Assembly: GCA_021371795.1 (NCBI GenBank)
Contig: JAJFVK010000022.1
Coordinates: forward strand, 1 to 40,339
DNA length: 40,339 bases
Reading direction: 5' to 3'
From: Planctomycetaceae bacterium
Lineage (GTDB): Bacteria > Planctomycetota > Phycisphaerae > Sedimentisphaerales > UBA12454
Part shown: piece after piece, positions 11,505 to 29,898 of the stretch
How the letters are laid out: the number at the start of each line of letters is the position of its first letter
Position numbering within the stretch: position 1 is the stretch's first letter
Position numbers and translations under genes: made by a program
The notes under the pieces: generated by a model
Seen by the model: only the letters and a program-made list of their open reading frames with translations
The model's database searches: none
What the model was told of the DNA's origin: nothing

Positions 11505-12254
11505 TTATCGGCGGCCAAGAAACGTGATTAAGCCGTCTAAAATGGTGTATGGATGCGGCGGACAGCCGGGAATGTATAAATCTACTTTAATATCGTTAAC
11601 GCCGTTATTGACTTCCGGATGGCCGTTGAATACGCCGCCGGAAATCGCGCACGCACCAACTGCGATAACAAATTTCGGAGCGGGCACGGCATCGTAAGTT
11701 TTTTTCAGCGCCTCTTTCATGTTCTGCGTAACGGGGCCGGTAACGAGAATTCCATCGGCGTGTCTTGGTGAAGCGACAAATTGCACGCCGAATCTGCCGA
11801 GGTCGAAAACAAGCGTGGACAAAACATTCGTATCGGCTTCACAGGCATTGCAGCCGCCGGCACTTACCTGACGAAGTTTCAGCGAACGGCCGAAGATTCT
11901 TTGGCTCTGTTTATCAAGAGCCTGCGCAAGTTTTCTTTCCTTGTCTGTTACAAGCAAGTCGTTTCTGTCTGTGGCGGCAAGTCTGTAATCTTTTGAAAAT
12001 TCAATGACACCATTTGCGCAAGTTTTCTGGCACTGACCACAGAAAACGCATTTACCTAAATCTAAAACCGGCTTTCCTTTTTCAAAAGAAATTGCACCGG
12101 CAGGACAAACATCGCTGCACTTGCGGCAAGTATCGCATTTATCCAAATGCAGAATCGGTCTGCCTTTGAAACGCTCCGGCAGAATCGGTTCTTTTGCCGG
12201 GAACGGATATGTTCTATAACCCTGTTTTATTCGTGCTATTAGCGCTTTTATCAT
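11505..12254 (-). CDS. Ehr/hydrogenase-4-like small subunit fused to a two-cluster ferredoxin (HyfH+HyfI type)
   Basis: This 249-residue electron-transfer subunit joins two parts that are separate in E. coli Hyf/Hyc. The N-terminal ferredoxin domain has two [4Fe-4S] motifs (Cys40/43/46/50 and Cys69/72/75/79). The C-terminal NuoB/HyfI-like domain has GCNACEAD (Cys135, Cys138), GACA (Cys202) and GCPPHP (Cys231), a complete set for the proximal, N2-like cluster. It should pass electrons between a soluble donor or acceptor and the large subunit at the cytoplasmic face. Its ATG overlaps the stop of the large-subunit gene by four bases (ATGA), implying coupled translation. It is the last gene of the operon before rsmH. 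The electron partner cannot be told from the sequence. Confidence 0.92.
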   Translation of the reverse strand: MIKALIARIKQGYRTYPFPAKEPILPERFKGRPILHLDKCDTCRKCSDVCPAGAISFEKGKPVLDLGKCVFCGQCQKTCANGVIEFSKDYRLAATDRNDLLVTDKERKLAQALDKQSQRIFGRSLKLRQVSAGGCNACEADTNVLSTLVFDLGRFGVQFVASPRHADGILVTGPVTQNMKEALKKTYDAVPAPKFVIAVGACAISGGVFNGHPEVNNGVNDIKVDLYIPGCPPHPYTILDGLITFLGRR

Positions 12255-13765
12255 AGGTCGTGTCCGCAGTAAGAAAGATTGAAACTTTTATTGCACAACG
12301 GAAAATCTGAAATCTGCTGATTTCTCAACACAACCGCCAATCCCATCCAGTTATGAAACGATGGGTCAACAATTTTATAATGAGCCAGTTGGCCTGCTGA
12401 ATCAGTAATCGCGGTATGACATATTTCGCCGCGCCAGCCTTCGGTCATCGCAACAGCAATCTTATTCGACGAAATATTTTTTGGCTCAACCGCAATTGCG
12501 CCGCTTGGCAACGTATTAAGCTGATTTTGAATAAACGCTACCGAATGCTGAATCTCAAGCCATCGGACATACGCACGCGCGAAGACATCGCCTGTGTGCC
12601 AGGTCGCGACAGGAACCTGCTGGAACTGATAAATTCCGCTTGCGAAATTATATCTGCTGTCATAATCAAGGCCGCACGCACGTGCTGCGGGGCCGACAAT
12701 ACCCAATGCCTGTGCTGTTTCTTTCGACAAAACGCCTGTGTCGTCAAATCTGCTCAACACCGAAGGAGTTGTAAAAAGACAATCAGCGGCGTTTTCAACG
12801 TCTTTAAAGGCAGCGGCCAAACGCTTTTGCAAATCTTCAATGTGTCGAGTCTCAATATCAAACGCCGTTCCGCCTGCGCGGAGGAAATTACGGCTGAAAC
12901 GATTGCCGCAAAGCACAGCGGACATATTAAGAAAATCGCCGCGGATGCGTCCGCAAAAAGACGAGGTCGGCAGATAACCGACATCGCCGGCAAGTGCGCC
13001 AAGGTCGCCGGTATGATTGGCCAGTCGTTCAAATTCCATCGCGATGCCGCGAAGCACCTGTGCCCTTACGGGAACAGAACAGCCGCTTAACGCTTCGAGA
13101 ATATTGCAATATGTCAGGCTGTGTCCGATTGTCGTATCACCTGCGGCGGTTTGCATATATTGGAACAGGCGATTATTCGGCGTGCCTTTCATCTGCTGTT
13201 CGATTCCGCGGTGCTGATAGCCGAGCGATATTTCCAGATGCAGGACGTTTTCGCCGTTGCACTGAAAACGGAAATGACCCGGCTCGATAATTCCGGCGTG
13301 AACGGGGCCGACTGCGACTTCGTGAATCTCGCTGCCTTCGACACGGAAAAAATCCGTTATGCCGGGCTTAACGCCATTATGGGAACGCTTCCACACATCG
13401 GGTTTGCCGTAAGAATTATGGAAGCGAATCGGTTTTAGCCACGGATGGCCAAGCGGCAAAACGCCGTACTGCTCGGCAATCTCACGCTCGAACCAGTGAG
13501 CCTGCGGACAATCGGGCGTAAGCGACTGATAATTTTCCTTAACTTCGGTCGAAGCCAGATACAAAACACCCTGCCGGTCGTCGGCAAGCACAACGATCAA
13601 TTTCACAATATCATTATTTTGCGGCATGCCGAAAAGCGAAGCGATTCGCAGGCCTTCGTTTGTCTTATTAATAATCACATCTCTGAAATCATTAATCAAT
13701 AACTGCGGCACAGCATTTATATCCGCTGAATGACCGTTATAAATTGCAAGCAGTTGTCGGCTCAT
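12251..13765 (-). CDS. Ehr-type large subunit (HyfG/NuoCD-like) lacking the [NiFe] cysteines
   Basis: The 504-residue protein combines a NuoC-like N-terminal part (residues 1-120, with HWFEREIAEQYG) and a NuoD/HyfG-like catalytic part (about 145-504: GPVHAGIIEPGHFRF, GYQHRGIEQ). In true hydrogenases the proximal motif RVCGICGFAHS binds [NiFe]; here the aligned residues are TAAGDTTIGHS (206-216). The distal DPCxxC is replaced by NLSYCGHDL (496-504), and that single Cys is out of register. All four metal ligands are therefore absent, so hydrogen chemistry is not expected. This defines the energy-converting-hydrogenase-related (Ehr) type. The start at 13765 has GGGAGG upstream and shares TAATG with the preceding stop; the longer in-frame extension to 14101 overlaps the HyfF-like gene and is rejected. 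Confidence 0.93.
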   Translation of the reverse strand: MSRQLLAIYNGHSADINAVPQLLINDFRDVIINKTNEGLRIASLFGMPQNNDIVKLIVVLADDRQGVLYLASTEVKENYQSLTPDCPQAHWFEREIAEQYGVLPLGHPWLKPIRFHNSYGKPDVWKRSHNGVKPGITDFFRVEGSEIHEVAVGPVHAGIIEPGHFRFQCNGENVLHLEISLGYQHRGIEQQMKGTPNNRLFQYMQTAAGDTTIGHSLTYCNILEALSGCSVPVRAQVLRGIAMEFERLANHTGDLGALAGDVGYLPTSSFCGRIRGDFLNMSAVLCGNRFSRNFLRAGGTAFDIETRHIEDLQKRLAAAFKDVENAADCLFTTPSVLSRFDDTGVLSKETAQALGIVGPAARACGLDYDSRYNFASGIYQFQQVPVATWHTGDVFARAYVRWLEIQHSVAFIQNQLNTLPSGAIAVEPKNISSNKIAVAMTEGWRGEICHTAITDSAGQLAHYKIVDPSFHNWMGLAVVLRNQQISDFPLCNKSFNLSYCGHDL

Positions 13766-15234
13766 TAGTAACCTCCCAACAGAGAAGCTATCGTGTGCAG
13801 AACATCGCTCAAATGAGTCGGAACATAAATTCCAAGTGCAAGCGTCGCGGTAAGCAAAATTGCCGGCGGCAGGAACGATGATGCCCTTTCGCTTTTTACC
13901 TCGACAGGTTTGATACTTTTGCCCTGTGCCATTCGCAACGCGATAGCGGATATACCTATAAATATAATCGCAAGCAAAATAAGATACGCGATAACAATCG
14001 CATAGCGTCCCTGATCGATGGCAGCTTTGAGAATCACAAACTCGCTTAAAAATATTCCGAAAGGCGGAAAACCTGTAATAGCTAAAATGCCCGCAACCCA
14101 AAGAAGTCCCGACGCAGGTATAGTCGAAAGCAAACCTCTTACATTGGCGGCATTTTTGGTTTTATAAGCAGCGAGGATATTGCCGGCAATCAAAAACAAA
14201 CCGGCTTTTGTGAGCGAATGATTTATCGCGTGGAACATCGAACCGAAAACCGCTGTACCGCCGAGTCCGACGCCAAGTGCGAGTATGCCCATGTGCTCGA
14301 CGCTCGAATACGCAAGCATTCGTTTGTAATCTGCCTGACCGATAACGAACACCGCTGCGAAAAGCATCGACACCAAACCGAACATTATCAAAAGGTCCTG
14401 CGCGAAGGCGATTTGTCCTGCGGCGGCTGTTACTTCAAATGCACGCAAAATGCCGACAAACGCACAATTCAACAACGCGCCTGAAAGCAAAGCTGAAACA
14501 AGCGAAGGCGATTCCGAATGAGCGTCCGGCAGCCAGGTGTGCAGCGGAGCAAGTCCCATTTTAGTGCCGTAACCTACGAGGAAAAATATGAAAGCCGCTT
14601 TAACCCACGGCGTCCATAACTGCGAACCGGCTGCGATAAGGTCGCTGCGCATCAGCGGTATCGAAACGCCGTTGTGAGCAGAAGCTGCAATCGCCAAGAA
14701 GAAATTGCCAAGCAGCGAAACCGCAATGCCTACCGAACATATAAGCAGATACTTCCACGTCGCTTCGAGTGAACGGTGGTGGCGATGGAAATAAATCAGC
14801 GGCGCAGTTACGAGCGTCGTCGCTTCCATCGTAACCCATAAAATTCCGAAATGCTGACTCGAAACAACCATTGTCATCATCGCCAAAAACATCAAAAGGC
14901 ACGCGGTAAAAACCGCTTCGGGAGCGTTGACGAAAAATTTCTCTTCCTCGAAATCTTTTTTGCCGTCATGCTTTTCGTTTTTCAGATACCTGACAGCGTA
15001 GAAAGACGTCATAAGGAACAGAAAACTTGATATGCTTAAAAATAACTGTGCAATCAAGTCAATCGCGAACCAGCCGTTCAAAATCGGAAGGAAATTCCGC
15101 GTCCAGCTCAACGTCATAATCACTGAATGACCAATCGCGGCGCCGACAAGCAGATACCTTCGCAGGTTATCGCTGCGGATAAGCAGGCTCAACAAAGAAG
15201 CACAAAACGGAATTAATATCAATGCCCAAATCAT
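13765..15234 (-). CDS. HyfF/NuoN-like antiporter-type membrane subunit
   Basis: This 489-residue, multi-pass protein belongs to the Mrp/NuoL-M-N family. Key stretches are LAPLHTWLPDAHSESPSLVSALLSGALLN and GQADYKRMLAYSSVEHMG, which hold the conserved Lys and His residues of the ion pathway in this family. A Glu in WVTMEATTLVTAPLIY (about residue 137) corresponds to the TM5 glutamate of complex I antiporter-like subunits. It is the second such subunit in the operon, so the complex probably has two ion channels, as Hyf and Ehr complexes do. The gap to the HyfE-like gene is two bases, and its stop overlaps the start of the large-subunit gene. Confidence 0.92.
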   Translation of the reverse strand: MIWALILIPFCASLLSLLIRSDNLRRYLLVGAAIGHSVIMTLSWTRNFLPILNGWFAIDLIAQLFLSISSFLFLMTSFYAVRYLKNEKHDGKKDFEEEKFFVNAPEAVFTACLLMFLAMMTMVVSSQHFGILWVTMEATTLVTAPLIYFHRHHRSLEATWKYLLICSVGIAVSLLGNFFLAIAASAHNGVSIPLMRSDLIAAGSQLWTPWVKAAFIFFLVGYGTKMGLAPLHTWLPDAHSESPSLVSALLSGALLNCAFVGILRAFEVTAAAGQIAFAQDLLIMFGLVSMLFAAVFVIGQADYKRMLAYSSVEHMGILALGVGLGGTAVFGSMFHAINHSLTKAGLFLIAGNILAAYKTKNAANVRGLLSTIPASGLLWVAGILAITGFPPFGIFLSEFVILKAAIDQGRYAIVIAYLILLAIIFIGISAIALRMAQGKSIKPVEVKSERASSFLPPAILLTATLALGIYVPTHLSDVLHTIASLLGGY

Positions 15235-15236
15235 CG

Positions 15237-15869
15237 TCAGTCCTTCAACACACTTAACTGGTCGGTATCAATATGGTCGAACTGTCTGCTGATGTGGAAT
15301 ATCGCGATACCCATTACAAACACGCCTACGAAAACATCCAGCAGCGTTCCAAGTTCGATAAGCATCGGCTGCTGATTTGCGATTGCCATACCGAAAGCGT
15401 AAATGCCGTTCTCAAGCACCAGATAGCCGAGCACCTGCGTGAGCGCTTTCTTGCGGCTGACGATTAAAAATAGACCGACAATCAATGTGAAAAACGCGAC
15501 GGGAATCAGCATCGGCGATTCGATAGTAAACGGCATAGGCAGTCTTGTGCTTATCCAGTATGAAAACGCAAGCACAATCGGACCGGCAAGAAGCGACTTA
15601 CCATAACCGACGTAAGGGTCGTCCTCACGCCAAACGTTTAACTGCCGCAGCGTTCGCAAAAGCATCAGCGGGAAAACAACACCTTTGAGAATTACACTGA
15701 TAATCGTAAATATTAGAATATGCAGTTCAAAATTGTGCAGCAGAAGCGGGAGTATGCCAAGCGCGACACCCTGCGTGGCGACAATCCTGATACAAGCGCG
15801 AAGTCTGCTGCTTCCGAGCACCATCATGTTCGTAAGTATCAGCAATACCATTACAATATCAGTCCACAC
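15237..15869 (-). CDS. HyfE-like (NuoK-related) membrane subunit
   Basis: The protein has 210 residues and about six membrane helices. The C-terminal half (VLGYLVLENGIYAFGMAIANQQPMLIELGTLLDVFVGVFVMGIAIFHI, about 145-193) matches the NuoK-like core, with the family's buried glutamates at LEN and IELG. The longer N-terminal half, with the loop RQLNVWREDDPYVGYG, is typical of HyfE and not of NuoK. It should form part of the ion-translocating membrane arm next to the HyfF-like subunit. It is tightly packed: three bases after the HyfC-like gene and two before the HyfF-like gene. Confidence 0.9.
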   Translation of the reverse strand: MWTDIVMVLLILTNMMVLGSSRLRACIRIVATQGVALGILPLLLHNFELHILIFTIISVILKGVVFPLMLLRTLRQLNVWREDDPYVGYGKSLLAGPIVLAFSYWISTRLPMPFTIESPMLIPVAFFTLIVGLFLIVSRKKALTQVLGYLVLENGIYAFGMAIANQQPMLIELGTLLDVFVGVFVMGIAIFHISRQFDHIDTDQLSVLKD

Positions 15870-15872
15870 AGC

Positions 15873-16808
15873 TTAACTCCTCAACGCAAAAACAAGCGAA
15901 AGTATCGCAAGTGAAATTGCGGCCAAAAGCAGGTTCGGCACACTAAGCAGCCGAAGGCGTGCCATACACGATTCGATAATTCCAACCAAAACAGATACCG
16001 CGAAAATGCCAAGTATTGTTAGAGGCATCGCAATCCATTGAGCGAGTCCGCTAACCGGCAAAAGGATTCCAACGAGAATCGCAGAGAAGAGCCAAAGCTT
16101 CAGCGCGGCTCCGTACAAAATAAAACCGAAATCCGGCCCGCTGTTGTCGAGCACCATAACTTCGTGAATCATTGTCAGTTCAAGATGTGTGTTCGGGTCG
16201 TCGATTGGGATTCTGGCGTTTTCCGTGAGGAGCACAATAACCATCGCGGCCGCGGCCAAAAGCAAAGTCGCGCAGCCGGTAGTCCACATCTGCGTCGTAA
16301 CGCCTGCGAAAATTCCGGCAAACGAGACACTCGAAGTCTGGCGAGCCATCGCAGCCAACGCGATAAACAACGCAGGTTCTGCCAAAGCGGAAAAATGCAC
16401 TTCCCTACTCGAACCCATTCCTTCAAAACTCGAGCCGGTGTCTAATGCGCCGATGACAATGAAAAATCTCATCAGGCCAAGCAAGTACGCGGCCAGAATT
16501 AAATCACCACTAAAACTAAACAGGCTGCTGTTGCCACCGCCGAGAGGCACTATCATCATCGCCAGAATAACCGACGCGAAACAAACCAGCGGCGCGATTT
16601 GGAAAACCCAAGATGTCGTCGTACTGTAAACGGCTCCTTTATGAAACAGCCGCCACAGGTCGTAATACGGCTGGAGAATCGGCTGACCCTGCCGGCCGGC
16701 GAATTTCGCTTTGACGCGATTGATTACGCCAAGCAGCATCGGCGAAAGCAGCAAAGCGGCGAAAGGCTGAATTATTTTAATCGCTAAATCCATTATCGCA
16801 GTTTCCAT
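15873..16808 (-). CDS. HyfC/HycD-like (NuoH-related) membrane subunit
   Basis: This 311-residue subunit links the hydrophilic and membrane arms. Hallmarks are INRVKAKFAGRQGQPILQPYYDLWRLFHKG (about 25-54) and ENARIPIDDPNTHLELTMIHEVMVLD, both strongly conserved in NuoH/HyfC/HycD and placed near the quinone-like cavity and the first proton path. It has about eight membrane helices. Its start overlaps the end of the HyfB-like gene by 16 bases; a second possible start is Met6 (MDLAIKIIQ). In complexes without the [NiFe] site this subunit, with the large and small subunits, would still couple redox change to ion movement, but the redox reaction is unknown. Confidence 0.92.
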   Translation of the reverse strand: METAIMDLAIKIIQPFAALLLSPMLLGVINRVKAKFAGRQGQPILQPYYDLWRLFHKGAVYSTTTSWVFQIAPLVCFASVILAMMIVPLGGGNSSLFSFSGDLILAAYLLGLMRFFIVIGALDTGSSFEGMGSSREVHFSALAEPALFIALAAMARQTSSVSFAGIFAGVTTQMWTTGCATLLLAAAAMVIVLLTENARIPIDDPNTHLELTMIHEVMVLDNSGPDFGFILYGAALKLWLFSAILVGILLPVSGLAQWIAMPLTILGIFAVSVLVGIIESCMARLRLLSVPNLLLAAISLAILSLVFALRS

Positions 16809-18775
16809 ACCATAAGAATTATCAGAGTTATCGCGATATACAGCACATACATCTGCACCACGCCGTATTGAACCCAGTGCATTTTACTCATCAGCGCATC
16901 GACCCATTTGAATATCGGCCGGTATAAATATTCACTGCTGACGTCGGGCGTGTGCGATTCGAACTGCGCCTGCTGCGGGAATAATTTCGTAATCTTTTCA
17001 GATTTGCTTTTGCTGTATAACACGCTTTTAAACATATCTACAATCGGATGAGAAAACGACGACGAGGTATATTGCATTCGCGAAGTCGCGCCGATATAAC
17101 CACAATCCCACGTGGGCGATTGCGTTACAGGATTTTTCGCGAGCATCTTTTTCCGCAAAAACATAAGAATCAGAACAAAAACTATCAGCGTTACTGACAC
17201 CATGGAAATAATAAATAGTATATTTTTCACCGGACTAATCTGTGCAGTTATCTGGTCAGCGGACAGTGCAGTAAGTGAAGCTGACGCGGACGCAACAACC
17301 GGCAATATCAGCGGAGCGGCCAAACCAACGATAACGCAAAGGCCGGCAAGTATCCACATCGCGAAATTCATTTCAGCGGTTACTTCGTGTGAATGTGCAG
17401 GCAGCGGGCAGCGAGATTCGCCGAGAAAAACAATACCGAATAATTTCGTAAACGCCGCCAAAGCAAAACCGCCAATTACCGACAGCGAAGCAATTGCACC
17501 AACTGTTGTCGCTACCAAAGGCAGCCCGTCTGTTATCGCGGCAGAGAACGAACCATAATACAAAATAAATTCGCTGACAAAACCGTTCAATGGCGGAAGG
17601 CCGCATATCGCGACAGAACCTATTGCGAAAGCAGCCGCGGTTTTCGGCATACGTTTGATAAGGCCGCCGAGCAGATCCATATAACGAGTGCCGGTAGTAT
17701 GCAGAATCGCGCCTGCGCCCATAAATAACAGGCTTTTAAAAATTGAATGATTGATTGTGTGCATCAGTGCGCCGGCAAAACCCAAAATTGCAAGAACCTG
17801 TGAGCCTTGCGCAACACCGACAACGCCAAGGCCGAGCCCTATGATTATGATTCCGATATTTTCAACGCTCGAATATGCAAGCATACGTTTGAAATCGTGT
17901 TGAGCCAGTGCGAACAAAACGCCAAGTATTCCTGTGATTGCGCCAAGGCCAATCAGCAGCCAGCCCCACCATACTTCGACCGTCGGCAAAATGTAAATCG
18001 TGCGGACAATACCATAGATGCCCATCTTTATCATTACGCCGGACATTATCGCTGAAACGTGACTTGGTGCGGCAGGATGCGCTTCAGGAAGCCAGACGTG
18101 CAAAGGCATAATTCCCGCTTTGGTTCCGAAGCCGACCAGCGAAAGCAAAAACAAAATCGACAGCGTCGTCGGGCCCGCTGATGAAAGAACTGCGGCAGAA
18201 TCAAAACTCAACGTTCCGCTGTATTTGCCGAGAAGAATAAAAAACGCGAGCAGAAACGCTGTGCCGATATGAGTAGCGATAAGATAAATCCAGCCGGCCT
18301 GTCTGACAGATTCGTGCTCGTCATCAAATGTTACAAGGAAGTATGACGCAAGCGACATCACTTCCCAGGCAACCAGAAATAAAATGCTGTTGCGGGAGAT
18401 TACGACCATCGCCATACCGGCGACAAGCATATTAAAGAAAAACGTCGGAACACCCAATCGACGCCCTTTATACGCAAGCATATATCCGCAAGCGTAAATC
18501 GCGATAATCGAACTGATGAGCAAAACCGGAATCAAAAACAAAGCTGAAAGACTGTCAAGCTCGACAGAAAAAGAACCGTAAGGCACCTGCCAGTCGGCCG
18601 TCAGTGAAATTATACTGCCGGAGATTAAAACTTTTGCGGCAGGTACCACGCTGATGATTGAGCCTGCAACAACGCCGGCAGCGCCGAATCTTACACAGCG
18701 TTTTTCATTTTTTATAAATAATGAAACGAAGCCCGTCAGTGCGATAACGCACAGGCCGGCTAAAACGATTGACAT
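16793..18775 (-). CDS. HyfB/NuoL-like antiporter-type membrane subunit
   Basis: A 660-residue subunit with about 15-16 membrane helices. The proton-conducting core shows ACGYMLAYKG, LVAWEVMSLASYFLV (TM5 glutamate), MPLHVWLPEAHPAAPSHVSAIMSGVMIKMG and ALAQHDFKRMLAYSSVENIG, all typical of HyfB/HycC. A C-terminal region (about 545-660) after the core contains CGYIGATSRMQYTSSSFSHPIVDMF, the family's tail, and a last membrane helix. It starts directly after the stop of the HTH-EIIA regulator gene (zero spacing), tying regulator and complex into one transcript. With the HyfF-like subunit it gives two antiporter-like modules. Confidence 0.93.
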   Translation of the reverse strand: MSIVLAGLCVIALTGFVSLFIKNEKRCVRFGAAGVVAGSIISVVPAAKVLISGSIISLTADWQVPYGSFSVELDSLSALFLIPVLLISSIIAIYACGYMLAYKGRRLGVPTFFFNMLVAGMAMVVISRNSILFLVAWEVMSLASYFLVTFDDEHESVRQAGWIYLIATHIGTAFLLAFFILLGKYSGTLSFDSAAVLSSAGPTTLSILFLLSLVGFGTKAGIMPLHVWLPEAHPAAPSHVSAIMSGVMIKMGIYGIVRTIYILPTVEVWWGWLLIGLGAITGILGVLFALAQHDFKRMLAYSSVENIGIIIIGLGLGVVGVAQGSQVLAILGFAGALMHTINHSIFKSLLFMGAGAILHTTGTRYMDLLGGLIKRMPKTAAAFAIGSVAICGLPPLNGFVSEFILYYGSFSAAITDGLPLVATTVGAIASLSVIGGFALAAFTKLFGIVFLGESRCPLPAHSHEVTAEMNFAMWILAGLCVIVGLAAPLILPVVASASASLTALSADQITAQISPVKNILFIISMVSVTLIVFVLILMFLRKKMLAKNPVTQSPTWDCGYIGATSRMQYTSSSFSHPIVDMFKSVLYSKSKSEKITKLFPQQAQFESHTPDVSSEYLYRPIFKWVDALMSKMHWVQYGVVQMYVLYIAITLIILMVWKLR

Positions 18776-19492
18776 TTACGGCATCTCCTGACTTGCTACA
18801 CTTTTATTTGCATTATCCAAATCGTTTTCAATGCGGGCTATGTGAGCGAAAATATTTTCGCGCGTGTCCTGATTCCTGATTGAATTTTTCAACGCTGCAT
18901 CCTGCAGGATAAAACTCAAACGTGATAATAAATGAAGATGCGCACGAGCTGTGGGACTTATGATCGTAAACAAACAATATACCGGCCTGCCATCTATTGC
19001 CTTGAAGTCAATCGGCTGCTCCAGAAAACAAAGCGATATCATCGGCTGCTCAACGTGCAGAACAATCGGGTTCCTGACGTGCGGAATCGCGATGCCGTCG
19101 CCAATACCTGTCGAAGCCATTTCTTCACGAGCGAGCAGAACACTAAACAGAAACTCGCGGTCAACTTCCTGCGGTAAATGTATAAGTTCCACTATCGAAC
19201 GCAACGCGGAAACCTTGTCTGTGCCGCTGACACGATAATAGATGCCGCCGGTCTTGATAGCTTCGCCAAGACTTTGCAGAGCGACACCCGCCGATTCCGG
19301 CTCGCTGAACAGCTCTTTGGAGACGTTAATGCGGTTTGCCATCGCCCATTCGAGCAGTTCGGCACGATTAAAGCGATATTGATTGTTGACTTTATAGGCG
19401 GGGAGCGATTGCTGATCGAGCCAACGATATACTGTTTTCTCGCTTACAGCTAATAATTTAGCGACATCTCGTACTGTCAACTGCATTGGCAT
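18776..19492 (-). CDS. Helix-turn-helix regulator fused to a PTS EIIA (fructose/Ntr type) domain
   Basis: Residues 1-55 form an excisionase-type winged HTH (MQLTVRDVAKLLAVSEKTVYRWL, then YKVNNQYRFNRAELLEWA). Residues about 75-225 are a PTS EIIA type-2 domain with the phosphorylation site GDGIAIPHVRNP; the active histidine is His138. The pairing suggests that phosphorylation by HPr or NPr tunes DNA binding or complex activity according to carbon or nitrogen state. No transporter EIIB or EIIC is nearby, so the role is regulatory. It is the first gene of the Hyf/Ehr-like operon, directly followed by the HyfB-like gene. A consensus promoter and an overlapping palindrome lie upstream, which fits autoregulation. 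Confidence 0.9.
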   Translation of the reverse strand: MPMQLTVRDVAKLLAVSEKTVYRWLDQQSLPAYKVNNQYRFNRAELLEWAMANRINVSKELFSEPESAGVALQSLGEAIKTGGIYYRVSGTDKVSALRSIVELIHLPQEVDREFLFSVLLAREEMASTGIGDGIAIPHVRNPIVLHVEQPMISLCFLEQPIDFKAIDGRPVYCLFTIISPTARAHLHLLSRLSFILQDAALKNSIRNQDTRENIFAHIARIENDLDNANKSVASQEMP

Positions 19493-19516
19493 CCTTTATA
19501 TAGCATTGGACATTTT

Positions 19517-19540
19517 AGGACAATTTTAAAATATCGTCCT
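19517..19540. promoter_or_regulatory. Near-perfect palindrome overlapping the Hyf/Ehr-operon promoter
   Basis: A 24-base near-palindrome with arms AGGAC...GTCCT and an AT-rich centre, two pairs mismatched, covers the -10 box at 19523-19528. A protein bound here would block transcription; the HTH-EIIA protein encoded first in the operon is the obvious candidate. Confidence 0.5.
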
Positions 19541-19550
19541 CAAATGTCAA
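19523..19550 (-). promoter_or_regulatory. Promoter of the HTH-EIIA/Hyf-Ehr-like operon
   Basis: On the minus strand, a perfect -35 TTGACA (19545-19550) and TAAAAT (19523-19528) are separated by 16 bases. Transcription would start near 19516, about 24 bases before the ATG at 19492. Confidence 0.6.
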
Positions 19551-19584: not shown

Positions 19585-21543
19585 CTACCGTACCATAGCC
19601 TGGCCGGCGTCAACGACGACGGTTTGGGCGGTAATCATTCTCGCTTTATCCGAGACGAGGAAAACCACCGTATCGGCGATGTCCTGACCCTTGATTTCTT
19701 TGCCGAGCATCGTTTTGCTGACATAATAAGGTATAACTTCTTCAGGCTTGATGCCGTATTTTTTCGCGCAGACCTTTATATATTCCGGATTCCAGATTTT
19801 CGAGCCTTCGAAAACATTGCCCGGACAGACAGAGTTGACTCTGATGTTGTGTTTGCCGAGTTCCATCGCCCAGCCGCGAGCCATGTGGATTTCGCCTGCT
19901 TTGGTCGCGTTGTATGGCGTGTTGTTTTTGCTCGGGTCAATGCCGGACTTCGAACTTAAATTGATAATACTGCCGCCCATATCCTGCGCAATCATTATTT
20001 GCGAAGCCTTTTGTGCCATCAGAAAATAACCGGTCAAATTCACTTCGAGCGCGAAACGCCATTTGTTTACCGGCAAATCTACAAGACTAAAAGCCGGAGC
20101 AACGCCCGCGGCGTTTACCATAATATCAAGGCCGCCCCAATTTTCGACGAGCTTATCAAACGCGCTGCCGACAGATTCAGCATTCGTCACATCACAAGTC
20201 AAAATCATAGTCGAACAGCCCGTTTCGGTTTTAATCATTTCAGCAGTCTGCTGCGCAGCGTTGGTGTCAATATCGACAAGCGCGACATTAGCGCCCGCTC
20301 TTGCTACACCCATCGCGAGACCTCTGCCAAGACCACTGCCTGCGCCGGTAACAACGGCGATTCGATTCTGCAACTCGCCGGAAGTTTTGCCTGCCGAGAC
20401 CGACTGACGGAACGACTCGGCCTCCCAATTTTTAATAAAATTACACTCACGGCGATTCAAAGCATTTATACCGCCCATTGACGCGGCATGGACACGAATA
20501 AACAATGAGCTTTTAACAATATCGTTTATAATGCTTAATACTGAATATTTTCCAACGACGAATAATCCGATCCCTTTTACAATGAAAGCCAGATATGGCT
20601 TATCACCCTTTTGAATCTGTTTTTTGATTTTATCTTCAATTTTATGTATGCCGTTTTCATCTACCCATAAAGGATTGCCGTTAGTATATACGATTTCATC
20701 GGGGCTTAGCATACCTGCGGCCAGCAATTTGCCGGCGTCTTTGCGCTGCATAAACGTGTAAATCTGTTCGTCGATGAAATGGCCGACCATCACATATTGG
20801 CCTGTCGCATTGAAAAACGCTTTGCGAATAGCTAATTTAGTTTTGTTGATTATATCGCTGCTTACCGGTTTGACTTTTATCTGCTTCGGCGATTTCAACT
20901 TACTATTACAGGCTTTCATAACTTTTTTAACAATTCTCAAAGCTGAATTGTAATCATCGGTCGAGATGAAAATGCCGTGCTTTTCGAGGAATAGAATCTC
21001 CGGCTTCGAGCCGTAAGTATTCACATAATCAGCGATAAGTTTCGACACTTTACGAGCAAGTACAAGACCCGGGTCTGCGTACTCAACCCACAGGAACGGC
21101 TTTTTATCGCCTGCGAAAAGTTTTTGCAGCATTGCCAGTCCGTTCTTTGCGCTGACATACGCGCCGACTGCGCTTGGATGCAAATGGACAACATATTTAT
21201 TGAGCATTGCGTGCAGATGAGCTTCGACGCTCGGCCGGCCCGCGTTTTTCAATCCGTCAACGCAGCAAAGATTCAATCGGTGAACGACTTCGGCTTCTCT
21301 TGCGTCAACGTCGAGACTTGCAATCGTCTTGTCATCTAATATCGAAATAGTTCTTTCGACATCAATCTTGCGCCAGCCCTTTTCCGCGGACATCTCTTTA
21401 AGAGCCGTGCCGCTGGCTTTTATGTACATATATTTTCCATCAGCGGTTTTGACGGATGTGTTCCCACCGCCGCCCTGAATGAGATTTAAATCAACGCCAA
21501 CTGTATTCGATACCTGAATAAGCTCTTTTAAACATTTATCCAT
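19585..21543 (-). CDS. rhaEW: Bifunctional rhamnulose-1-phosphate aldolase / short-chain dehydrogenase
   Basis: This enzyme splits L-rhamnulose 1-phosphate into DHAP and L-lactaldehyde and oxidises the aldehyde with NAD to L-lactate. The 652-residue protein starts with a class II aldolase/adducin domain (GGGGNTS at 24-30, metal-binding His120-x-His122 in VVHLHPS, EKHG at 187-190). It ends with a short-chain dehydrogenase domain from about residue 392 (VVTGAGSGLGRG, NAAG, catalytic YNATK). The fusion is the same as in Bacillus RhaEW. It follows rhaA by 20 bases and is the last gene of the rhamnose operon. Lactaldehyde oxidation in the same protein avoids release of a toxic aldehyde. Confidence 0.93.
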   Translation of the reverse strand: MDKCLKELIQVSNTVGVDLNLIQGGGGNTSVKTADGKYMYIKASGTALKEMSAEKGWRKIDVERTISILDDKTIASLDVDAREAEVVHRLNLCCVDGLKNAGRPSVEAHLHAMLNKYVVHLHPSAVGAYVSAKNGLAMLQKLFAGDKKPFLWVEYADPGLVLARKVSKLIADYVNTYGSKPEILFLEKHGIFISTDDYNSALRIVKKVMKACNSKLKSPKQIKVKPVSSDIINKTKLAIRKAFFNATGQYVMVGHFIDEQIYTFMQRKDAGKLLAAGMLSPDEIVYTNGNPLWVDENGIHKIEDKIKKQIQKGDKPYLAFIVKGIGLFVVGKYSVLSIINDIVKSSLFIRVHAASMGGINALNRRECNFIKNWEAESFRQSVSAGKTSGELQNRIAVVTGAGSGLGRGLAMGVARAGANVALVDIDTNAAQQTAEMIKTETGCSTMILTCDVTNAESVGSAFDKLVENWGGLDIMVNAAGVAPAFSLVDLPVNKWRFALEVNLTGYFLMAQKASQIMIAQDMGGSIINLSSKSGIDPSKNNTPYNATKAGEIHMARGWAMELGKHNIRVNSVCPGNVFEGSKIWNPEYIKVCAKKYGIKPEEVIPYYVSKTMLGKEIKGQDIADTVVFLVSDKARMITAQTVVVDAGQAMVR

Positions 21544-21563
21544 ATTATTTACTATCCCTAAAA

Positions 21564-22820
21564 TTATCTTTTGCTTAAAACATCGGCTTCGTATTTTTTA
21601 ACCTGTGCGAGCCAGTCTAATCCTACCGGCACATTCGACTTTGCACAATAATAATCCCATACCGCGCCAAACGGCAGAGTTTTCAGTTCTTCGGAAATCG
21701 CCAGCCTGCTTGTTAAATCGCCGGCTTTTTCGCACTGCTTCATCTTCGCTATCGGCTCAAGCAGCCCCGCAAGCAGTGCCTTGAGCATGCAACGTGTGCC
21801 GATTACCCAGGCAGCGATTCTGTTAATGCTCGCATCAAAGAAATCCAGACCGATGTGCACTCTGTCGATGTACCCGCCGCGGATGATTTCCTGCGCGATT
21901 GCGTAAAGCTCATCAGAAAGAATCACGACGTGGTCGCTGTCCCAACGGACAGGACGCGAAACGTGCAGCAGTATCTCATCAAGAAAAGTCAACGTTGAAG
22001 ATATTTTATCTGAAATGACTTCGGTCGGATGGAAATGGCCGGCGTCAAGGCAAAGCAGTTTTTTATTCGCAACCGCGTAGCCCATATAAAACTCGTGCGA
22101 ACCGACGACATAACTTTCCGAGCCGATGCCAAACAGTTTGCATTCCACCGCGTCAAGATTCAAACGCGGATTTATTTTTTGCGTGAAAATTTCATCGAGA
22201 GATTTTTTCAATATTTCTCTTGGGCCTTTGCGGTCAACGGGAATATCCTTATAGCCATCCGGTATCCAAATATTTGTTACGACAGTCTTGCCGAGTTTTT
22301 TGCCCATTACTTCGGCAATTTTTCTGCACGCTTTGCAGTGGTGAACCCAGAATTTCCTGACTTGTTCGTCTCTGCTCGAAAGTGTAAAACCACTCGAAGC
22401 CATCGGATGCGAAAAACAAGTCGGATTGAAATCGAGTCCCATTTTTTTCGACTTGGCCCAGTCAATCCAGTTGGCGAAATGCGCCGGCGTAATTTCATCT
22501 CGTTCGACTTTTTTGCCTTTGAACTCACCGTATATCGCGTGCAGATTCAGTCTGTGCGTGCCGGGGATTAAACTTAACGCTTTGTCCAAATCTGTTCGCA
22601 ACTGCTCAGCAGTTCGCGCTTTGCCGGGATAGTTGCCGGTCGCCATAATTCCGCCGTCAAGGCCTGCGTCAGGATTTTCAAACCCGCCAACATCGTCGCC
22701 CTGCCAGCAATGAAGTGAAACAGCGATTTTAGACAATTGTTTCATCACGGTATCAGTATTTACGCCGATTGCCGCGTAAGCGTCTTTCGCGATTTTATAA
22801 GCTCGTTCCACGTTCTTCAT
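21564..22820 (-). CDS. rhaA: L-rhamnose isomerase
   Basis: It converts L-rhamnose to L-rhamnulose in the cytoplasm with Mn2+/Zn2+. The 418-residue sequence is very close to E. coli RhaA in length and content: [15 protein letters not shown] (34-48), [29 protein letters not shown]-type [32 protein letters not shown] and [11 protein letters not shown] with its metal ligands, then [22 protein letters not shown]. No key residue appears missing. It is one base downstream of the PHP-domain gene and 20 bases upstream of rhaEW. Confidence 0.97.
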
Positions 22821-22821
22821 T

Positions 22822-24042
22822 TTATCTCCCTATCTTCTGAATTGTCTGAATTATTTGTTCCGGCGATGAATTAATATCAAAATCTTTCAAAATATTTTCC
22901 GCTGCTGGCTCAACATTTTGGCCGAGCTGTGCGAAAAATTTATTTTTGTCCGCTCTGTTTTTAAAATTATTATTTGACCATTCGCTCTTGTATCCAAGAC
23001 CGCACTGCCTTTGCAGAATCGTATGGCCGTAAATAATCAATGCACCGTCCAAAAATATATGCACAAGCGGCTTCAATTCTTCGGACTGAAAATTATCGAC
23101 AAATTTCTGGCCGGGACTGTTCATTTCCGTGCCTGCGATAATCGGCAGGTCTAAATTTTCGCATATTTCAACAAATTTATAAAGGTTTTTTTTCTTCGTA
23201 TCCGTTTCGCCAAGTCCGGGCGTAAAATTCCTGTCTGGAATAATATTCACCGCCTCAACGCCGAGAGAAATCGCAATATTCAAAAGCTCTTCGATTCGTT
23301 TTTCGCCATCGCTTGTGCCGTCGAGCCACGCAAGAGTCGGAATGCCGCCGATTGAAACTACAAACTCATTCATTTGAGCTATCGTCGGAAAAGATTTGTT
23401 GTCCGGCTGGACATAACCCGCGCCGCCGCGTTTCATCGTCTTTGCGCGAATGGCGTTTGTCAGCGCGACCTTGTCGGCAAGATTATCAAAACCAATTTTT
23501 TCCTTCCAGAACGCTTTGAGTTTATTTTCATCGGGAAAAATACTCTGCGCCTTGTCGGCGTAAGCTTTGCATATATGCCGTTCGGTAACATTGCCCTTCG
23601 GCGTTAAAGGCACAACGTCTTTTTGATAATCAACAACGACAGGCTTCAAATATTCATTTACACGTTTGACAAGTTCGAGATTTCTGTTTTTTGCCATCGT
23701 GCGGAGATTATCTAAAAACTTTTTCTGCTGCGGAGAAACATTGCTCGATGTAATTCCGGCGCCCATGTGGTACGCAATGCCCGGCTCGCCCGGCGAGTTA
23801 ATTACATAATCGGCAAACTCCGGTACGTACACGCGAGTTTCGATTCCGCCGCACGCTTTTAAGTTTAATTGTTTGGCAGCCGCGAAAAATTCATCAATAC
23901 CGTCAAGCACATCGAAATCGACGATGCCAGCAGCAGCGAGATTCGCCTTTTTAGACAGAGAAGCGATTGTGTTCGGACTGTAACCTTCGGCATTAAATGA
24001 ATAATGCGTATGAAAGTGCATATTTGTAAATTTGTGTGTCAT
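22822..24042 (-). CDS. PHP-domain metal-dependent hydrolase-like protein in the rhamnose operon
   Basis: The 406-residue protein begins with MHFHTHYSF (His9, His11, His13), the metal-binding start of the PHP fold. Further pieces are GIETRVYV (about 86-93) and, in the C-terminal half, [11 protein letters not shown]. The usual TDH in the second motif is replaced by VDFD, so one metal ligand may be lost. PHP proteins include phosphoesterases, histidinol phosphatase and polymerase exonucleases; no PHP enzyme is part of the classical rhamnose route. It sits between rhaB (one base) and rhaA (one base), so it is surely cotranscribed and probably acts on a pathway sugar or sugar phosphate. The exact reaction is unknown. 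Confidence 0.85.
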
Positions 24043-24043
24043 A

Positions 24044-25522
24044 TTATATTTCTAAAACATTCTTAATTTGTTGATATTTTTTGTCCCACGTTTCGTGTTC
24101 GGCTGGCTGATATATTTTCAATTCGAATGATTTCGCAACCACTTTTCTGCCTTCGGCGATATTTTTAATCTGGCCGGCAGTGATTGCCTGAACCATAATA
24201 TTGCCCATCGCGGTCGCTTCAACAGGGCCTGCTATGACTTTTCTGCCAATTGAGTTGGCGGTGAACTGACAAAGCAGTTCGTTCTGAATGCCGCCGCCGA
24301 CGAGATGAAGCACATCAATTTTTTTGCCGGTGATTTCTTCGAGAATATCAAGCACTCTTCGATAATAAAAAACAAGACTTTCGATAATAACTCTTATCAT
24401 CTGCCCTTTATCGTTTATTTTTTTATATCCCTTTTCAACAAGATATTCATTAATCACCGCTGGCATATCACAAGGCGCAAGAAAACGCGAATCGTTGGGG
24501 TTTATCACAGCCATAAACGGCCGGGCACTTTTCGCCATTTCCGCCATATCTGCAAAAAACAGCTTTTCGCCCTGCTGATTCCAGTTTCTTCGGCATTCCT
24601 GAATGAGCCACAATCCCATAATATTTTTCAGCAGCCTGATTGTATTATACACGCCGCCTTCGTTTGTGAACTGATATTTATAAGTGCTTTCATTGATGAG
24701 CGGCTTTGAAATTTCAACGCCCATCAGGCTCCATGTGCCGCTGGAAAGATATGCCCAGTTATCGCCTGTCGCCGGAACCGACGCAACCGCTGAAGCTGTA
24801 TCGTGCGAACCCGTGGCAACGACAGGGATTTGTGCGCAGCCGAGTTTGTCAGCAATTTGTTTTTTCAATTTGCCAACGACACTGCCGGACTGAACAATCT
24901 TCGGCATAATATTCACTGGCAGCGATAATTTACTAAATAACTCGTCAGACCATTTGCCGGTATTCATATCCAGAAGCTGCGAAGTGCTGGCGAGCGTATA
25001 TTCGCTGAAAATCTCGCCGCACAAATAATACGAAACCAAATCGGCCATCAGGATTATCTTGTCTGTTTTTTTAAGAGAATCCGGCTGCTGAAGTTTTAAC
25101 GCTTCCAGTTGATATATGCTGTTGAACGGCATAAATTGAATGCCGGTGATTTCGTAAACTTTTTCCCGCGGCACAATCGAAAAAACTTTGTCCATCATTG
25201 TGTCAGTGCGTTTGTCGCGATAATGATAGGGATTTTCGAACAATACCCCTTTGCTGTCTATCAGGCCGAAATCAACGCCCCAGCTATCAACGCTTATGGA
25301 TTCAATTTTGCCAACGTGTTTGGCAGCGTTTGCCAGGCCGGTTTCAATTTCGCCGAAAAGTTTGGCAAAATCCCATCGTATTGAATCGCCATGCTCAATC
25401 GGGCCGTTTTCAAACCGGTGCATTTCCTCAAGTAAAATTTTACCATCTCTGACGCAACCCAAAATTACCCTGCCGCTGGAAGCGCCCAGGTCGATGGCTA
25501 TATAATTCTTAGCTCCATCCAT
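24044..25522 (-). CDS. rhaB: Rhamnulokinase
   Basis: An ATP-dependent FGGY-family kinase that makes L-rhamnulose 1-phosphate. The 492-residue protein opens with YIAIDLGASSGRVILG (phosphate-binding loop), then SVDSWGVDFGLID, YHYRDKRTD, GSHDTASAVASVPA and SSGTWSLMGVE. Later come LHLVGGGIQNELLCQFTAN and VEATAMGNIMVQA, which are the standard RhaB signatures. The length is normal for the family. Two nearby ATGs (ATGGATGG) could both serve as start; the first is used here. It lies 12 bases after the dehydrogenase gene and one base before the PHP gene. Confidence 0.97.
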   Translation of the reverse strand: MDGAKNYIAIDLGASSGRVILGCVRDGKILLEEMHRFENGPIEHGDSIRWDFAKLFGEIETGLANAAKHVGKIESISVDSWGVDFGLIDSKGVLFENPYHYRDKRTDTMMDKVFSIVPREKVYEITGIQFMPFNSIYQLEALKLQQPDSLKKTDKIILMADLVSYYLCGEIFSEYTLASTSQLLDMNTGKWSDELFSKLSLPVNIMPKIVQSGSVVGKLKKQIADKLGCAQIPVVATGSHDTASAVASVPATGDNWAYLSSGTWSLMGVEISKPLINESTYKYQFTNEGGVYNTIRLLKNIMGLWLIQECRRNWNQQGEKLFFADMAEMAKSARPFMAVINPNDSRFLAPCDMPAVINEYLVEKGYKKINDKGQMIRVIIESLVFYYRRVLDILEEITGKKIDVLHLVGGGIQNELLCQFTANSIGRKVIAGPVEATAMGNIMVQAITAGQIKNIAEGRKVVAKSFELKIYQPAEHETWDKKYQQIKNVLEI

Positions 25523-25534
25523 CTTCTTCGCTCT

Positions 25535-27154
25535 CTATGAAAGTTTTTTCAATAAAGCATCTTCCGCTTCTTTCGACCACAGCCCGTTATGTAATTTTTC
25601 CGCGACATCCGGCATACTGTTTTTAATTTGTTCAATTTTTGTAAGCGGCAGATTTTTCGCAGCGGGATAAACGACGATTTTGCCGGGGATAAGCTGATTT
25701 TCCACGGCGTTTACTCCCTCTATCGCAGCAGAAAGTCCCGCAACAGCGGCGATGGAAATATTTGTGTCCAACGAGCCTTGCTCGACTTTGGCCAAAACTG
25801 TTTTCATATCATCAAGCGTCGAACCGCTCGTACCAATGAAATAAAGTTTTTTGTCGATGTACGTCTGCAAATCAACCATTCCGTCAACTGTGGCCGGAAT
25901 GCCCGCGAAGATATTTATCTTCGCATTGTCGGCTGCTGAATCTACCGAAAGTTCGACAAGCTTCGGAACCGGCGCCATCAGGATTATATAATCGAATTTT
26001 TCAGTGATATTGTTCTTCGTTGAATTATATGGTATGAATTTCAAATCGTTTTTGTCAGCCAGTGGTTTGGCAATTCTGTTAAGAATATGAAGTCTGTTGT
26101 CGTCCAGGTCCGCACCGTAAACGCTGACATTTTTCACGCCCTGACAGAGATTTCTGACAACGTGCATAACGCCCATCGGGCCGCCTGCGCCGACGACATT
26201 GATTTTGTCGCCTTTTTTGATTTCGCCGCCGGCGGGGATATAACCCATCGAATCAGCGGGATTGTTCGAACTCGTCCCAACAATACGGATATTGCCGTAA
26301 TGTACCCTGCCGATTTTGCAGGTGATTTTGCGTGCGATTTTTCCGCCGCAAAGCACAACGTTCAGCAGACTGCCTGCCGAGAGTTTCGGGAAAATCTTTT
26401 CGATTGTTTCAGCATTCGAGCCGAAATAAATCACGTCATCGAAATCGGCTTCCTTCAATTTCGCAATTTCATCTTTCGATGCGTACATAACTGATGAAGG
26501 ATTGCCGAATTTGCGGAGAAAATCTTTCAGAGTTTTTTCAGAATAATCGACATCAGAAACCACCAGCGTTTTGCCTTCGGTTTTCAGCGTTTGGCGTTCC
26601 TTAATCGAATATGCATCTTCAACGCACGCCCACGGCTCAACAAGCGCAATCGCCGAGGCGGACAATTTATCCGACGCCGGCAAAAGCATAGAACCATCAG
26701 TCGGGCTTATGATAACACGCTCGTCCATCAAGACGTATTCCTGCAGCGCACCTTCGAAATTATATCCGAAAGCCGCGTTGGAATTTTTCGTAGGCAGCCA
26801 GCGGTAATCCGTCTGAACCAAAAACCGCTGACCCGGTTTTACATCTTTAACTTTGCCGCCGACAGCCGCAATTCTTATAACCACTTCGTGGCCGGGAACT
26901 GTGGGCATATCATCCGGCACATAACTTGGAATCTCCTTGAGAATCTTCTGGTCGATGCCGGAAAGAATCGGACTCTTTCGCGGATGAGCAGAAAACTGCT
27001 TCAAAAGTTTTAAATCTGAAAAGCAAAGGCCGACGGCCTCGACTTTGCCGAGAATCTGATAATCGTTCGGCATGAAAACTTCCTTTTCAGTATTGTATAC
27101 AAGCTGATTCGGGCCTGTAAGCTGAACGGCTCTTTGTTTTTTAGGTATTTCCAT
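25535..27154 (-). CDS. Enlarged zinc-type (MDR) alcohol/polyol dehydrogenase with two Rossmann-like regions
   Basis: The protein resembles medium-chain zinc dehydrogenases of the threonine/sorbitol dehydrogenase group. It has GLCFSDLKLLKQ (Cys44 as zinc ligand) and VPGHEVVIRIAAVG (His89, Glu90). At 539 residues it is about 150-200 longer than usual. After the catalytic part there is a degenerate nucleotide-fold region (about 195-295: KTLVVSDVD... VIYFGSNAE... LNVVLCGGK) and then a canonical one at KINVVGAGGPMGVMHV (318-333). A helical tail closes the protein. It lies in the rhamnose operon between the lipoyl gene and rhaB and may act on a polyol, lactaldehyde or a keto sugar; SorE-like sorbose-1-phosphate reductases are possible relatives. 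The substrate is not known. Confidence 0.86.
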   Translation of the reverse strand: MEIPKKQRAVQLTGPNQLVYNTEKEVFMPNDYQILGKVEAVGLCFSDLKLLKQFSAHPRKSPILSGIDQKILKEIPSYVPDDMPTVPGHEVVIRIAAVGGKVKDVKPGQRFLVQTDYRWLPTKNSNAAFGYNFEGALQEYVLMDERVIISPTDGSMLLPASDKLSASAIALVEPWACVEDAYSIKERQTLKTEGKTLVVSDVDYSEKTLKDFLRKFGNPSSVMYASKDEIAKLKEADFDDVIYFGSNAETIEKIFPKLSAGSLLNVVLCGGKIARKITCKIGRVHYGNIRIVGTSSNNPADSMGYIPAGGEIKKGDKINVVGAGGPMGVMHVVRNLCQGVKNVSVYGADLDDNRLHILNRIAKPLADKNDLKFIPYNSTKNNITEKFDYIILMAPVPKLVELSVDSAADNAKINIFAGIPATVDGMVDLQTYIDKKLYFIGTSGSTLDDMKTVLAKVEQGSLDTNISIAAVAGLSAAIEGVNAVENQLIPGKIVVYPAAKNLPLTKIEQIKNSMPDVAEKLHNGLWSKEAEDALLKKLS

Positions 27155-27204
27155 AGTTCCACAATTTTAAGTCATTAGCTACTAACGGTCAACTGTCTGT
27201 TTAC

Positions 27205-27438
27205 CTATTCAATAATCATCATTGGGTCATTGACAGGTATAGTCTGACCATCGGTAACGAGTATTTCTTTGACAGTGCCTTCGGCGGTACTTTCCATCTC
27301 AAGCGTCGCCTTGTCGGTTTCTATTTCGAACAGCACATCGCCTTTGTTCACTTTGTCGCCGACTTTAACTTTGCAGCTTACAACAGTGCCTTCTTCCATT
27401 GTCTGTCCGAGTTTTTGTAAATTAATTGTCGTTGCCAT
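27205..27438 (-). CDS. Free-standing lipoyl-carrier domain protein
   Basis: This 77-residue protein is a single biotinyl/lipoyl domain. The modified lysine lies in ETDKATLEME (Lys43), the typical E2 lipoylation motif, and MEEGTV at the start and a closing hydrophobic strand complete the barrel. It has no subunit-binding domain and no acyltransferase domain. It follows the E1 alpha-beta gene by 11 bases and has GAGGT before its ATG, so the two are made together. It should carry acyl-dihydrolipoyl groups from that E1; biotin attachment (AMKM motif) is excluded by the sequence. Confidence 0.93.
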   Translation of the reverse strand: MATTINLQKLGQTMEEGTVVSCKVKVGDKVNKGDVLFEIETDKATLEMESTAEGTVKEILVTDGQTIPVNDPMMIIE

Positions 27439-27449
27439 ATTTTACCTCA

Positions 27450-29687: not shown

Positions 29688-29712
29688 TTTTAACTCCAAA
29701 ATTAACCAACAT

Positions 29713-29881
29713 TGTTCATTTGTGTAATATATCATTTAACGAACTTTCAAAAAAGTCTTTTTGGCCTTAAAAATGTTTGTTTTTCGCAAAAACAAGCCTG
29801 AACGAACACAAATAAACATAAAAAGACTTGAAAGCAACCAAACAATACAGTATAATACATAAATTAAACACAAATAAACAT
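29713..29881. promoter_or_regulatory. Repeated DeoR-type operators in the divergent intergenic region
   Basis: AACACAAATAAACAT occurs exactly at 29805-29819 and 29867-29881. An inverted near-copy (TGTTCATTTGTGT, one mismatch) lies at 29713-29725, and a weaker inverted one near 29773. The copy at 29867 lies at the start point of the DeoR gene. The one at 29713 overlaps a possible minus-strand promoter of the rhamnose operon (TTGAAA 29745-29750, TATTAC 29724-29729, 15-base spacer, weak). A single repressor could thus control both directions. Confidence 0.6.
29828..29856 (+). promoter_or_regulatory. Promoter of the DeoR regulator gene
   Basis: TTGAAA (29828-29833) and TATAAT (29851-29856) are 17 bases apart, giving a start near 29863. 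This is 36 bases before the ATG at 29899 and next to an operator copy. Confidence 0.65.
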
Positions 29882-29898
29882 TGTTTTTAAGGTGTAAT

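Follow-up and report, generated by a model that had tools for sequence, protein, structure and literature searches.

Seven genes on the minus strand of the stretch of DNA analyzed here (the window: 40,339 nucleotides of Planctomycetaceae bacterium, GenBank assembly GCA_021371795.1, contig JAJFVK010000022.1) encode an energy-converting-hydrogenase-related (Ehr) complex and its putative regulator. As judged from its sequence, the operon is a six-subunit member of the complex I/group 4 hydrogenase superfamily and not a hydrogenase, and Ehr, a class that was itself already known, is the right place to file it. Coupling of a redox reaction to ion translocation has been proposed for Ehr, the function of which is called unknown (PMC10284858). 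We consider it probable that Ehr is a ferredoxin-linked ion pump under the control of the phosphotransferase system (PTS). The regulator, its operator and an ATP-synthase gene context are, as far as checked, new additions to what is known of Ehr; an explanation of the hyp genes in the genome and a residue-level map of lost and kept positions are also added here.

In the assembly, which totals 2.85 Mb and is about 98% complete, the window makes up contig C22. The seven genes, which span 19492-11505 and overlap or are spaced by a few bases, are in order of transcription:

18776..19492, minus strand: regulator of 238 aa with an excisionase-type helix-turn-helix (HTH_17) and a PTS EIIA(Ntr/Fru)-type domain, here called HTH-EIIA (Pfam HTH_17 4.2e-16, PTS_EIIA_2 3.1e-27)
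16793..18775, minus strand: HyfB/HycC-like antiporter-type membrane subunit, 660 aa (NCBIfam hydrogenase 4 subunit B 1.5e-186, under the cut-off of the model)
15873..16808, minus strand: HyfC/HycD/NuoH-like membrane subunit, 311 aa (Pfam NADHdh 1.3e-30)
15237..15869, minus strand: HyfE/NuoK-like membrane subunit, 210 aa (NCBIfam hydrogenase 4 membrane subunit 1.8e-26, under the cut-off of the model)
13765..15234, minus strand: HyfF-like second antiporter-type membrane subunit, 489 aa (NCBIfam hydrogenase 4 subunit F 5.3e-106, under the cut-off of the model)
12251..13765, minus strand: large subunit EhrL, 504 aa, with 30-kDa-like and 49-kDa/NiFe-like domains
11505..12254, minus strand: EhrS, 249 aa, a two-cluster ferredoxin domain joined to a HycG/NuoB-like small subunit (Pfam Oxidored_q6 9.8e-30 and Fer4 domains; MbhJ match 3.2e-32)

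A preliminary description of this DNA had given the coordinates and gene order of a hydrogenase-4-like operon correctly, and Pfam and NCBIfam searches confirmed the two antiporter-like, the HyfC-like and the HyfE-like subunits that it had placed with an iron-sulfur small subunit in a single operon; the regulator at the head of the same stretch had been passed over. Its prediction that automatic annotation would miscall the operon as a hydrogenase held for the membrane subunits, which receive hydrogenase-4 names, but not for the large subunit, which is NuoD-like (Complex1_49kDa) by family models.

EhrL was homologous along its full length to HycE (FHL5, PDB 7z0s_E; phmmer 1.3e-44, profile 5.8e-65). 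In agreement with the loss of every [NiFe] ligand noted earlier, residue mapping onto HycE indicated that all four ligands were replaced, C241 by A208, C244 by T211, C531 by S498 and C534 by G501. The RxCGxC and DPCxxC ligand motifs of group 4 are thus missing, and the corresponding segments read:

13118..13147, minus strand: former first CxxC motif, now AAGDTTIGHS (residues 207-216)
12254..12277, minus strand: former DPCxxC motif and C terminus, now LSYCGHDL followed by the stop codon (residues 497-504), near-invariant in the family

The lone Cys of NLSYCGHDL (C500) occupies a non-ligand position, and a true hydrogenase with displaced ligands, for which a check had been proposed, was contradicted by the alignment, which contained no set of four Cys ligands elsewhere in the subunit. 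R537 of HycE, which we take to be the last residue of the mature protein after the HycI cut, corresponded to L504, the final residue of EhrL, and the stop codon comes directly after it; the cleavable C-terminal extension of group 4 [NiFe] hydrogenases is missing.

The same pattern was noted throughout the family. Ligand position 1 was A, S, C or V, position 2 was T, S or A, position 3 was always S and position 4 always G among 98 family members, none of which had more than one Cys at the four positions (of the 99 rows in the alignment, the remaining one was a genuine hydrogenase at locus L058). Since the ligand set is uniformly missing from these 98 members, its loss is not due to chance. G209, D210 and H215 of EhrL were virtually invariant. 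The near-invariance of LSYCGHDL is partly selected because the collection scan that supplied the family was in part seeded with this peptide; in a search of relatives that was not seeded with the motif, the same C-terminal motif was present in 18 of 18 aligned orthologues. The 21 kb of locus L058 (Phycisphaerales bacterium fen_1361) contain this genuine four-Cys hydrogenase large subunit as well as an Ehr operon.

Whether the large subunit falls inside the true group 4 hydrogenases, a question raised by the preliminary description, was examined in a maximum-likelihood tree that also held HycE, HyfG, MbhL, NuoCD, Nqo4 and 11 homologues from relatives (ten with hydrogenase-like ligand motifs and one NuoD-like). 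All 28 family rows lay on one side of a branch with 100/100 support, outside sampled group 4 and NuoD; order within the Ehr clade was weakly supported and one member (L019) formed a long branch. EhrL grouped with its orthologue from Geotalea sp. SG265 (L106), a member of the Geobacteraceae, in which the Ehr complex received its name (PMC7894505); EhrL of G. sulfurreducens was absent from the tree. The Geotalea protein is 58% identical, and its operon has the same order, with HTH-EIIA first, and a fused small subunit. This orthologue, the lack of NiFe ligands and the composition of the operon bear out the assignment to Ehr made earlier. The published cluster of G. sulfurreducens (GSU0739-0745, ehrA-1 to ehrL and ehrS) encodes the same subunit types, likewise without NiFe ligands, in seven genes including EhrA-1, as opposed to six complex subunits with one HyfB-type gene in the window.

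An AlphaFold2 model of EhrL alone, made with 49 sequences, had a mean predicted local distance difference test score (pLDDT) of 84.8. Its best structural match was HycE (Z 38.8, root-mean-square deviation 2.7, 477 residues) and the next was NuoCD (Z 34.6). HycE/HyfG of E. coli formate hydrogenlyase and hydrogenase 4 provided the best match by sequence as well as by structure, with residues of the proton path and membrane arm in common, whereas EhrL lacks the maturation peptide at its C terminus, the canopy Asp and all four ligands, and the operon lacks the FdhF/HycB, HycH and HycI partners. With respiratory complex I (NuoB, CD, H, I, L, M, N), the complex shares a fold and a large subunit that ends at the mature position, but it lacks the quinone-site Tyr and His as well as NuoEFG, has a CxxC motif at the N2 cluster and falls in a separate clade.

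In contrast with the metal ligands, much of the remaining machinery was retained. The proton-transfer residues of HycE (E193, H284, R395, E437 and R478; PMC9474812) were conserved in EhrL as E161, H251, R362, E404 and R445. H222, K239, E294, K336 and E391 of HycC were all conserved in the HyfB-like subunit, most of the same set (H239, E313, K343 and E398) was kept in the HyfF-like subunit, and the HyfC-like subunit keeps the E-channel residues Y108, R114, E136, E144 and E196. The twelve cluster Cys counted earlier in EhrS were all present:

12018..12137, minus strand: eight Cys of two ferredoxin-type [4Fe-4S] sites (C40-C79)
11562..11852, minus strand: four Cys of the proximal (N2-type) [4Fe-4S] cluster (C135, C138, C202, C231)

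The N2 motif, CNAC, has the hydrogenase-like CxxC spacing and aligned without gaps with MbhJ and HycG. The fusion of ferredoxin and small subunit, previously regarded as a further simplification, was found throughout the family and hence is the family norm. Ferredoxin-cluster Cys were missing in L068, L104, L114, L117, L129 and L096, and the small subunit of L056 (genome G027) also lacked most of them.

Among 59 relatives, own genome included, the large subunit was present in 18 genomes at 55-100% identity and in one at 40%, and 85 of the 396 genomes of the class matched it at E <= 1e-60. The collection scan confirmed at least 570 relatives, and 80 loci were kept. These came from Planctomycetota, Verrucomicrobiota, Kiritimatiellota, Acidobacteriota, Omnitrophota, Elusimicrobiota, Spirochaetota, Fibrobacterota, Myxococcota, Thermodesulfobacteriota and other phyla; some contained two HyfB-type genes and thus three antiporter-like subunits. 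Published work likewise places Ehr across many anaerobic and nitrifying lineages and describes its reaction as an open question (PMC10284858, PMC10432482). None of 13 pattern matches seen in a search for viral carriage of the complex was a relative.

The genome search for maturation genes that had been suggested revealed hypA, hypD and hypE on contig C4 (hypE and hypA identified by reading), but these were unlinked to the Ehr operon. Their presence is explained by a bona fide HoxEFU-type group 3 [NiFe] hydrogenase on contig C13, with RLCGIC and DPCLSC motifs, the cluster of which contains NuoE/F-like (HoxEF-type), HoxU-like and F420-non-reducing/sulfhydrogenase-like subunits and a maturation protease. 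Group 4-like large-subunit matches with one in-frame stop each (TGA and TAA) were noted in two other genomes (G002:C32:14794-16101 and G003:C13:47384-48694), where the stops may reflect the end of the gene, selenocysteine or decay.

Full-length loci from many phyla numbered 58, and HTH-EIIA accompanied the complex in 52 of them, directly before HyfB in 50 and directly before the large subunit in two (L112, L118). The 58 loci with enough upstream sequence are 62 found automatically minus L061, L094, L102 and L129, in which the HyfB match was HyfF near a contig end. The phosphorylatable His of the GxxxPH motif (H138, 19079-19081) was invariant in 52 of 52 aligned sequences. Since the genome encodes EI and HPr, as well as several more EIIA domains, phosphorylation of HTH-EIIA is possible. 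PtsN, or EIIA(Ntr), has such a domain and His as well, whereas that of the window sits behind an excisionase-type HTH within an Ehr operon. The conserved start of the protein is probably the ATG at 19486 (MQLTV). No mention of this association was found in the excerpts of the Ehr literature, a scope outside which the primary papers (Coppi; Marreiros and colleagues) fall.

A candidate promoter and operator precede the regulator gene:

19523..19550, minus strand: sigma-70 type promoter TTGACA-16-TAAAAT, predicted from consensus alone (11/12 matches)
19508..19522, minus strand: operator-like direct repeat TGTCCTAAAATGTCC, directly after the -10 box

TGTCCTAAAATGTCC was the sole match to its pattern in the window, where 0.05 were expected. 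In 61 unique upstream regions, the strict pattern TGTCC-N5-TGTCC occurred in 19, as opposed to 0.01 in Markov controls, and a relaxed repeat occurred at the same place in 31, as opposed to 0.3, with 10 as the prevailing distance between TGTC copies. A scan of both strands of the 80 loci (1.27 Mb) gave 16 strict matches, all on the operon strand and 15 at the start of an HTH-EIIA gene. Some of these sites are shared by descent among close relatives, but the repeat also turned up in Acidobacteriota (L069), KSB1 (L087) and further lineages. No operator was noted before HyfB in the six loci without HTH-EIIA. We read the repeat as a dedicated site that is probably autoregulatory, and its location over the start region suggests repression. 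A wider regulon was rejected, the genome having four strict matches as opposed to two for the control; matches lay on C6, C13 and C16, and the AT-rich C6 match was a tandem repeat behind a transposase.

In three loci of Kiritimatiellota that lacked HTH-EIIA (L083, 2659-4900; L089, 1371-20991; L111, 2671-2958), an atpI homologue was located directly ahead of HyfB, with a gap of 4-5 bp in L083 and L089 and immediately ahead in L111. ATPase_gene1 (atpZ) was further upstream in L083 and L089, and in the latter Ehr lay within an F-ATP-synthase operon (atpZ, atpI, Ehr, atpB, atpE) that was interrupted ahead of the downstream atpB and atpE by a type III restriction-modification cluster. This gene context supports the view that the complex serves to translocate ions. 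The c subunit of L089 reads GIGQG...IESLAIY, with a Q, E-S, Y pattern that, by eye, is presumably of the Na+-binding ring type and hints at Na+ as the pumped ion. No ATP-synthase link was found in the window itself.

In the mechanism that we favor, low-potential electrons, probably from ferredoxin, would enter the fused ferredoxin domain and pass through the N2-type cluster to a proton-coupled acceptor in the emptied active-site pocket. The kept proton-path residues and the E-channel would couple this redox step to movement of H+ or Na+ via HyfB and HyfF; in the reverse direction, an ion gradient might drive ferredoxin reduction. The TGTCC repeats over the promoter are most likely the binding site of HTH-EIIA, which would tune transcription according to its phosphorylation by EI and HPr and thereby tie the pump to carbon and phosphoenolpyruvate status. 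A more specific version, in which a primary pump under HTH-EIIA/TGTCC control uses ferredoxin electrons and a new acceptor in the pocket to export Na+ (or H+) and so feeds the ATP synthase, is put forward tentatively, as a possibility that we rate well short of even.

Several observations weigh against a PTS-controlled, ferredoxin-linked pump. The canopy Asp of HycE (D529) is N496 in EhrL, and the HycD loop glutamates E199 and E201 are N206 and H208 in the HyfC-like subunit. The pLDDT of the EhrL model was below 50 at residues 153-163 (the beta1-beta2 loop) and 491-504 (the tail), exactly at the pocket, which would not be surprising for a subunit modeled without its partner. Clustering of neighboring genes revealed no recurrent redox-partner family around the 80 loci, the clusters being mostly antisense artefacts apart from one histidine-kinase-like family in four loci. 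The proposed binding of the regulator to the operator is based solely on their co-occurrence. Finally, N2 ligands were lost in the small subunits of L084 (11513-12304; N, E, E, W), L102 (4621-5394; S, C, E, W) and L056 (2828-3619; D, C, D, N), although the matching large subunits retain the Ehr motifs, which is difficult to square with electrons having to pass through N2. An N2-less subfamily, sought in 392 genomes of the phylum, was rejected; all readable loci keep N2, and the loss is therefore sporadic.

Other explanations were weighed against the same evidence. That Ehr is a ferredoxin:menaquinone oxidoreductase with the quinone in the emptied pocket, as in complex I, is unlikely, although it draws support from the closeness of the EhrL fold to NuoD (Z 34.6), from the lack of any other NuoD homologue in the genome and from the single UbiA-family gene, which matches MenA (TIGR00751, 112.5 bits, cut-off 102.15). 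UbiA-family genes were present in 57 of the 59 relatives. The conserved Tyr and His of NuoD have a role in quinone reactions; in the alignment, the Tyr of its Asp/Glu-Tyr motif is G209 in EhrL and the His of the HPSTH beta1-beta2 loop is I160, and the Cys of the N2 motif are spaced as CxxC, the hydrogenase arrangement, as opposed to the adjacent Cys pair of complex I. Electrons might be drawn from formate dehydrogenase, as suggested by work in which a formate link is proposed for Saganbacteria and Riflemargulisbacteria and Ehr is more abundant in formate-grown Geobacter (PMC6349859, PMC7894505), but neither formate dehydrogenase nor any other partner gene recurred beside the 80 loci, and we regard this source as rather improbable.

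The loss of N2 ligands with intact large-subunit motifs in L084, L102 and L056 would fit a complex that is no longer a redox enzyme but a cation/proton antiporter or an ion-driven conformational device with clusters as relics; such loss is rare, all 12 Cys being intact in the window and most relatives, and we consider this explanation very unlikely. Scarcely any weight is given to a sulfur or polysulfide reductase with catalysis at an under-coordinated proximal cluster. MBS and Mbx of Pyrococcus are likewise ion-pumping relatives with a degenerate NiFe site, and in MBS some of the NiFe ligands have been lost as well and the reaction takes place at the cluster (PMC7684303); however, MBS has an Mrp-type membrane arm and needs a shortened cluster motif, whereas the CxxC of EhrS aligned without gaps, and MbsL retains two of the four Cys whereas EhrL retains none. 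The idea of a genuine [NiFe] hydrogenase that has unusual ligands and depends for maturation on the Hyp proteins of the genome (hypA, hypD, hypE) can be dismissed almost entirely, given that there is no candidate ligand set and no C-terminal peptide to cleave and that the C13 hydrogenase accounts for these proteins.

Elsewhere in the window, an rsmH-like gene (by reading) comes next after the operon and was not a conserved neighbor across loci, and an Rfam scan of the window gave no match. The region at 19585-30669 resembles a deoxy-sugar (rhamnose/fucose type) utilization cluster, with names from reading of the sequences: a class II aldolase fused to a short-chain dehydrogenase/reductase (19585-21543), an isomerase-like protein (21564-22820), a kinase (24044-25522), an alcohol-dehydrogenase-like protein (25535-27154), a dehydrogenase E1-type protein (27450-29735) and a DeoR-type regulator (29881-30669).

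The near-invariant AGDT and LSYCGHDL motifs mark the pocket to mutate or image and provide annotators with a simple test against false calls of hydrogen metabolism. Moreover, the near-universal PTS-type regulator, its specific operator and the ATP-synthase gene context are three handles on Ehr, which make the questions of when the complex is produced, which ion it moves and what drives it testable in cultured Geotalea, Geobacter and Pontiella.

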